DNA of 64,000 bases from the NCBI GenBank assembly GCA_937928595.1, contig CALGJV010000014.1:1-64000 (forward strand), written 5' to 3'. A program made the translations under genes and the position numbers. Shown here piece after piece: positions 35,395 to 36,138 of the stretch (position 1 is the stretch's first letter; each line of letters starts with the position of its first letter). Origin of the DNA: an uncultured Phycisphaerae bacterium (GTDB taxonomy: Bacteria > Planctomycetota > Phycisphaerae > UBA1845 > Fen-1342). Below the pieces are notes generated by a model. That model made no database searches, had not been told where the DNA came from, and saw only the letters and a program-made list of their open reading frames with translations.

Positions 35395-35537
35395 ATCCGC
35401 GTGCCGGACGGACCGCGCATCGCGGCAGCTTGTGCGTTCGGCGGCAGAGACCGCCGGCCCGAGCCTCAGGAGCAGGGGAAGTCGGGCAAGAAAAAGATCC
35501 AAACTACCTTGATTCCCCAATAGACCCGCACTTTGAA

Positions 35538-35555
35538 GTCCCCTAGATTAGGGAC
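35538..35555. other. Hairpin upstream of selB
   Basis: GTCCC and GGGAC, extended by a TA pair across a bulged C, form a short stem-loop in the 275-base stretch between selB and the candidate small RNA. No T-run follows on either strand. Confidence 0.4.
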
Positions 35556-35581
35556 AGGGTGGGGCTATGCCTCGGCACAAT

Positions 35582-35612
35582 GGCTCGTCAAGCAGGGGGG
35601 GCTTGGCGAGCC
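35582..35612. other. Strong 12-bp hairpin upstream of selB
   Basis: GGCTCGTCAAGC and GCTTGGCGAGCC pair over 12 positions with a single T-G wobble, closing a 7-base loop of A and Gs. Neither strand has a following T-run, so it is not a standard terminator. It may be part of a structured leader or another RNA. Confidence 0.5.
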
Positions 35613-35654
35613 ACTGTTATTTCAGGCACGGTTCTGCTTTGGAAGCGTAGCAAC

Positions 35655-35722
35655 AAAAAAAGTCCGAGTGGGGGGCCGACAGGCCGGGGGGGAAACCTGT
35701 ACGTGCCTCGCGCCACTCGGAC
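35655..35722 (-). ncRNA. Candidate 68-nt small RNA with intrinsic terminator
   Basis: A promoter with consensus -10 sits so that transcription should start at about 35722. The predicted RNA opens with GUCCGAGUGG and closes with its exact complement CCACUCGGAC followed by seven U (35661-35655). Inside the 10-bp stem is a ~40-nt region that can fold as ACAGG/CCUGU around a C-rich loop or alternatively GGCC/GGCC. Promoter, structure and terminator together define a complete short transcription unit in noncoding DNA. It matches no RNA family I recognise. The long stem doubles as the terminator, so it could alternatively be the 3' end of a longer transcript. Confidence 0.6.
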
Positions 35723-35728
35723 AGCTAG

Positions 35729-35756
35729 ATTATAGAAGCATTGTGACGGCTTGCAA
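35729..35756 (-). promoter_or_regulatory. Promoter of the candidate small RNA
   Basis: TTGCAA, a 16-base spacer and a perfect TATAAT. This is the best sigma-70-type match noticed in the window. A 6-base inverted repeat with AT-rich arms (GCAAAA/TTTTGC, 35765-35789) lies just upstream and may be an operator or UP-like element. Confidence 0.65.
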
Positions 35757-36138
35757 CACCGCCAGCAAAAACTTTCGGAGAACTTTTGCGAACCGTTTCG
35801 TTTCGGTGAAGGTCCGGCACACAGCTCGTCCATGAATCCTGTAAGATATTTTCAAACATGAGTTTATGAATACTGGCATCGGGCGGCCGGTTTGCCTTCC
35901 ATTCCCGAGCGGCACCCGCCAAGGTGGACCGCGCGGAAGCACGCGGTCGCGACGGTCCGGACGATCGCCGACTCCCCGCGGCGCGGGCTCACAGCGCCGC
36001 TCTCAATCGGGTCTCGCCCCCTTCACGAGTTTCCAACAGGGCCCGTCGGTCCGAGATGGCCGATACTCCTGTGCAGCTTGCGTCGTCGGGGGCGGGGCGC
36101 GAGAATCGCGTCACGACTCGCGGCCGCGAGCGACGAGG
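35757..36138. other. Noncoding stretch between the small RNA promoter and dedA
   Basis: No convincing gene is present; the short frames here have poor composition and no ribosome-binding sites. The first ~120 bases are visibly A/T-richer than the surroundings and contain the inverted repeat near 35765-35789. The remainder returns to high GC. Confidence 0.5.

Follow-up and report, generated by a model that had tools for sequence, protein, structure and literature searches.

Locus and predicted structure of the putative small RNA gene

The window, which is the whole stretch of 64,000 nucleotides analysed here from an uncultured Phycisphaerae bacterium, was found to carry a putative small RNA (sRNA) gene on its minus strand, between dedA and selB. 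The features of this gene are as follows:

35751..35756, minus strand: -35 hexamer TTGCAA (promoter scan; a TTGNNN-like hexamer is present at this spacing in most of 20 homologues)
35729..35734, minus strand: -10 hexamer TATAAT (a TAnnnT hexamer precedes the stem by 4-10 nt in 19 of 20 copies)
35655..35722, minus strand: small RNA gene of 68 nt (homologues and covariation; without an Rfam match)
35713..35722, minus strand: 5′ arm of the basal (terminator) stem, GUCCGAGUGG (double compensatory changes in 5 of 10 pairs within the family)
35662..35671, minus strand: 3′ arm of the basal stem, CCACUCGGAC (family covariation)
35696..35707, minus strand: 5′ arm of the inner hairpin, GGCACGUACAGG, in which an A and a U are bulged (folding and family covariation)
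35674..35683, minus strand: 3′ arm of the inner hairpin, CCUGUCGGCC (folding and family covariation)
35686..35695, minus strand: apical UUUCCCCCCC, proposed target-pairing seed (predicted unpaired; nearly invariant across the class)
35655..35661, minus strand: U7 tract of the intrinsic terminator (sequence)

An earlier note on this DNA had described a minus-strand TTGCAA-16-TATAAT promoter, which proved correct to the base (35756..35729), as well as a 10-bp stem seven bases after the -10 hexamer and a closing run of seven U, all of which were found where it had placed them. The spacer between the two hexamers is 16 nt, and the stem begins 7 nt further downstream, at G35722; transcription is predicted to start at or adjoining this base. 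The sigma-70-like promoter was the sole match within the 5 kb scanned, where 0.3 matches were expected. The highly structured RNA of ~68 nt that had been proposed corresponds to 35722..35655, with a folding energy of -36.6 kcal/mol versus -21.9 ± 3.1 kcal/mol in dinucleotide shuffles (z = -4.7). Within the basal stem sits the inner hairpin (GGC-CG-ACAGG / CCUGU-CG-GCC), which is closed by the loop UCCCCCCC; the last U and the seven C of this loop are predicted to be unpaired, with probabilities of 0.95-1.0 over these eight positions. Against a G+C content of 71% across the window, 35481-35860 has 53%, the promoter region 46% and the RNA 66%, such that the "A/T-richer pocket" of the earlier note holds for the promoter side but not for the RNA. 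The window's own genome carries one copy of the RNA.

A further palindrome, GGCTCGCCAAGCCCCCCCTGCTTGACGAGCC with seven C in its loop, was observed at 35582-35612 (minus strand), without promoter or U-tract. It is repeated downstream of the RNA in relatives (L033, L036, and L043) and occurs alone elsewhere (L050, L051, and L052); one solitary hairpin of this type lies directly 3′ of a CoA-ligase/acetyltransferase gene. On the plus strand, the palindrome of the window would present a G7 loop, the complement of the loop of the RNA. The hairpin was considered as belonging to the RNA or as a leader element of selB and was rejected in both roles, as it occurs alone elsewhere and has no promoter of its own.

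Conservation of the RNA within the family and across the class Phycisphaerae

BLASTN analysis of 100 relatives returned strong matches (E-values down to 3.5e-24) that were confined to the window's own family, often with several per genome. A covariance model (R1) built from 19 copies detected 20 strong copies in 9 of the 27 family genomes, at one to four per genome: four in G021; three each in G013, G016, and G026; two each in G002 and G010; and one each in G000, G001, and G006. The named records with matches were Phycisphaerales/Phycisphaerae metagenome-assembled genomes (MAGs). Weak in-family matches to R1 (G001:C40, G007, G009, and G019) were left out, as they resemble coding sequence or unrelated palindromes; the genome searches scored a limited number of candidates per genome, and absences are therefore soft. 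The TAnnnT hexamer precedes the stem by 4-10 nt in 19 of the 20 family copies, where chance would place it at ~1.5% of positions, and in most cases a TTG-type -35 hexamer was found 15-19 nt upstream of it. In the family alignment (A1), 98.9% of base-pair cells were paired and six pairs displayed double compensatory changes, versus a pairing of 24-47% when the partner was slid by 1-3 columns. Since promoter, stem, and loop all recur in 19-20 homologous copies, the question of a chance origin is settled. The proposal of a complete sRNA unit is thus well supported by sequence comparison, in terms of (i) a promoter position retained in 19 of 20 copies; and (ii) covariation, which the earlier note had named as a check and which proved strong among the family copies and very strong at class level. 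The boundaries of the gene likewise follow from this comparison.

A divergent copy at L042 3666-3737 lacks the -10 box, lies between repeated coding-like sequences and is probably decaying, and another copy is followed directly by a REP-associated transposase-like gene (L032 5162-5668), which may represent a route of duplication.

Matches to R1 were also found to reach families beyond the window's own. In these, the layout is GGCGAGG-CAG-CGUGG-NNNN-CCGG-UUUCCCCCCC-AGCCGG-...-CCUCGCC-UUUUUU, the RNA is extended to about 110 nt by an additional 5′ hairpin, and most members have a TTGACA-17-TAnnnT promoter ~77 nt before the loop. A second covariance model (R2), representing these related families, matched 79 of 347 Phycisphaerae genomes (families f1, f3, f7, f15, f21, f23, f25, and f28) and none of the 272 genomes sampled from the phylum outside the class (294 less 22 of the same class). 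In an alignment of 39 sequences (A5), 16 of 17 pairs displayed double changes (90 cells in all), with a covariation of 0.458 versus 0.145 when shuffled and at most 0.09 when slid; A5 was fitted to the model and leans toward the structure, and the unfitted alignments A1 and A4, the latter with six pairs of double changes, agree with it. The kinship of the two structural types rests on the shared layout, the loop and moderate model scores, and one genome of family f3 (G028) bridges both types, with 40.7 bits by R1 and 42.5 bits by R2. The apical motif GGUU(U)CCCCCC(C)RRCC was found to be nearly invariant across the class while the surrounding stems change, and all sequences in alignments A1, A3, and A4 contain at least six consecutive C. 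Matches of a pattern scan outside the Phycisphaerae were rejected as chance, as none exceeded 19.1 bits with the covariance model; the 15 strong matches all came from Phycisphaerae or planctomycete MAGs.

Variants of the architecture were also observed. The motif UUCCCCCCCGG is present twice in one stem in G030 and is doubled within one terminator stem at L204 6001-6070. Family f25 has tandem units near yjbQ/argS, in which two to three C-loop hairpins lie behind one strong TTGACT-17-TATAAT promoter (L226 4001-4201, L227 4001-4210, and L228 4001-4213). Directly 5′ of the basal stem, L185-L202 carry a conserved 5′ hairpin and ACGAACCUCGG, where CCUC could pair with the GAGG of the basal stem as an alternative to the terminator stem. 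Two RNAs of family f4 (L205 6001-6070 and L206 6001-6069) have the same layout and their own promoters, but their apical loop (GGUUCACCCCGGC) is shorter and a separate run of seven C lies in the 5′ internal segment; these are possible distant relatives, at only ~25 bits.

Relationship to known C-rich-loop RNAs

The region 35540-35840 was scanned against all of Rfam 15 by cmscan at E-values up to 10, and no family was matched, including 6C. The relatives L185, L204, and L227 gave only chance matches to Rfam far below the gathering scores, with none to 6C. A full-text literature search for sRNAs of Phycisphaerae returned no relevant paper and no description of this RNA. In 6C RNA, both of the two hairpins carry six or more C in their loops. 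The RNA of the window has one apical C7 loop, and two or more C-run loops were found only in some relatives (L204 and L226-L228). Based on the absence of an Rfam match and of a literature description, and with 6C failing both on model match and on its two-loop architecture, the RNA appears by sequence comparison to be a new family of a known functional kind, the C-rich-loop sRNAs, with no common ancestry implied. It resembles this kind in having its own predicted promoter and intrinsic terminator, in being short and structured, and in exposing a conserved C-run in a loop.

The likeness to individual members of this kind is partial, and the RNA is not detectably a member of any of their families. 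The 6C RNA of Actinobacteria (M. tuberculosis 6C and M. abscessus B11) is likewise small and structured, and its loops contain about six C, but the RNA of the window differs in its single apical C-loop inside the terminator stem and in its phylum. M. abscessus B11 is reported to have two C-rich loops, with a G6 tract in the 5′ UTR of a target (PMC10470900); the title of Mai et al. 2019, as cited in that paper, states that the 6C sRNA binds mRNAs via C-rich loops independently of an RNA chaperone. sX13 of Xanthomonas shares the apical C-rich loop and acts without Hfq on G-rich motifs near target starts (PMC3771888), whereas it is proteobacterial and has three stem-loops with shorter C-runs; no sequence relation to it was detected. 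GsrN of Caulobacter pairs through an exposed C-rich loop with a G-tract of the katG leader (PMC5869019), but it differs in fold and lineage, and its loop is 5′ rather than in the terminator stem. RepG (HPnc5490) of Helicobacter, mentioned in PMC3771888 as using a UCCCCCU loop on a G-rich site, and LhrC of Listeria, a multicopy sRNA with several copies per genome (PMC4132741), are similar in working principle only, without homology. The RNA thus appears to represent an undescribed conserved sRNA family of Phycisphaerae and adds a further, unrelated lineage that has retained an exposed C-run loop, which bears on the recurrence of this loop chemistry in bacterial sRNAs. With the exact gene boundaries and the covariance models at hand, anyone can look for it in existing RNA-seq data.

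Proposed mode of action and candidate targets

Overall, these results suggest, with a probability of about 0.7, that the RNA is a class-wide, Hfq-independent, trans-acting sRNA that pairs through its C-run with G-tracts of mRNAs. The sigma-70-type promoter would drive transcription in vivo from the base of the hairpin, and the entire transcript, of 68 nt in the window and about 110 nt in the families with the 5′ hairpin, would fold such that the basal stem doubles as an intrinsic terminator and the inner hairpin presents a single-stranded (U)CCCCCC(C) loop. This loop would make the first contact with G-tracts of mRNAs in trans and without Hfq, probably near ribosome-binding sites, by which translation starts may be blocked or exposed. 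Pairing of this type is proposed because the exposed loop is the only nearly invariant sequence and the C-rich-loop RNAs that have been studied (sX13, GsrN, and B11/6C) pair with G-tracts close to translation starts. Hfq was not found in the 10 genomes tested, eight of which are at least 90% complete, and its absence fits the Hfq-independent cases of C-rich-loop RNAs; the family may be a case of sRNA control without Hfq. We see even odds for the broader proposal that it is a core regulatory RNA, specific to the Phycisphaerae and ancient, which some lineages have lost or relocated and others have multiplied, and which controls a regulon of G-tract mRNAs without Hfq.

The predicted pairing energy of UUUCCCCCCC was -19.5 kcal/mol with its full complement, -13.1 kcal/mol with GGGGG flanked by A and -6.2 kcal/mol with a plain GGAGG Shine-Dalgarno sequence. 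Because pairing with GGAGG is this weak, the loop would be expected to select G-tracts over ordinary ribosome-binding sites. The complement GGGGGGAAA was not clearly enriched in the RNA-bearing genomes; in six genomes of family f23 it was positioned just before a start or open frame at 7 of 77 sites versus 3 of 57 for the reversed motif, a difference that is not convincing. The patchy occurrence of the RNA, in only 9 of 27 family genomes and roughly one in four of the class, also counts against the proposal, although few candidates per genome were scored. Candidate target sites include L237 (a pilus-type membrane protein as predicted by eye), L249, and L286.

The lack of target-motif enrichment would also fit a real RNA that acts as a sponge or binds a protein; the partner caught by the C-run loop would then be an RNA-binding protein or a different RNA, not an mRNA leader. 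The conservation of the loop far exceeds the need of one mRNA target, and the multiplied copies (one to four per genome), with two or three C-loop hairpins per unit in f25, point in the same direction. However, the few exposed-C-run RNAs that have been studied pair with G-rich mRNA, and no known poly-C-binding partner was identified; we regard capture of this type as distinctly less probable than pairing with mRNA G-tracts.

Neighboring genes of the RNA copies

The location beside selB and dedA described in the earlier note is accurate for the window but does not extend to a general link. Within the family, six copies are divergent from a DedA/VTT-domain gene, three of these being upstream of selB; it is in the window and two relatives that selB lies downstream on the same strand as the RNA. 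Other copies of the family adjoin unrelated genes, among them those for an aromatic/histidine ammonia-lyase (identified by Pfam), an RNase Y-like protein, purL and a radical-SAM protein (the latter three identified from reading the protein). In families f15, f21, f23, and f25, the RNA adjoins yjbQ/argS/rsfS, often with yggS, and is mostly on the opposite strand to that operon; its syntenic position at yggS/yjbQ is retained from family to family. By this comparison the RNA is independent of any one neighbor: no neighbor function is common to all copies, and the vicinity of selB is incidental. A link to selB function was considered and rejected, the synteny being limited to three genomes. ARAGORN found no tRNA in the window, and the RNA displays neither a tRNA fold nor a selenocysteine element; the tRNA-Sec of this genome is located elsewhere (C17:69327-69421, 65.1 bits). 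An encoded peptide is also unlikely, since the C-run is kept while the flanking pairs change and the length changes between six and seven C would shift the frame.

That the element is a leader, an attenuator or a mere terminator of a neighbor such as selB is suggested by the same-strand selB in these three genomes and by the intrinsic terminator at the end of the RNA. However, most copies have different genes downstream or genes in the opposite orientation, and the yjbQ/argS operon is mostly on the opposite strand in the syntenic families. The earlier note had allowed for a longer transcript of which this would be only the terminator, yet the gene upstream is divergent at the dedA locus and leaves nothing to terminate. 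With neighbor genes that differ between lineages and paralogues, a leader role is most improbable and already largely refuted. Equally far-fetched is a REP/MITE-like interspersed palindromic repeat devoid of RNA function, for which the several copies per genome at unrelated sites in some relatives, the different C-loop palindrome nearby and the L042 copy without a -10 box could be cited, but which is countered by promoters that lie outside the palindrome, by base-pair covariation and U-tracts, and by the synteny across families at the yggS/yjbQ locus.
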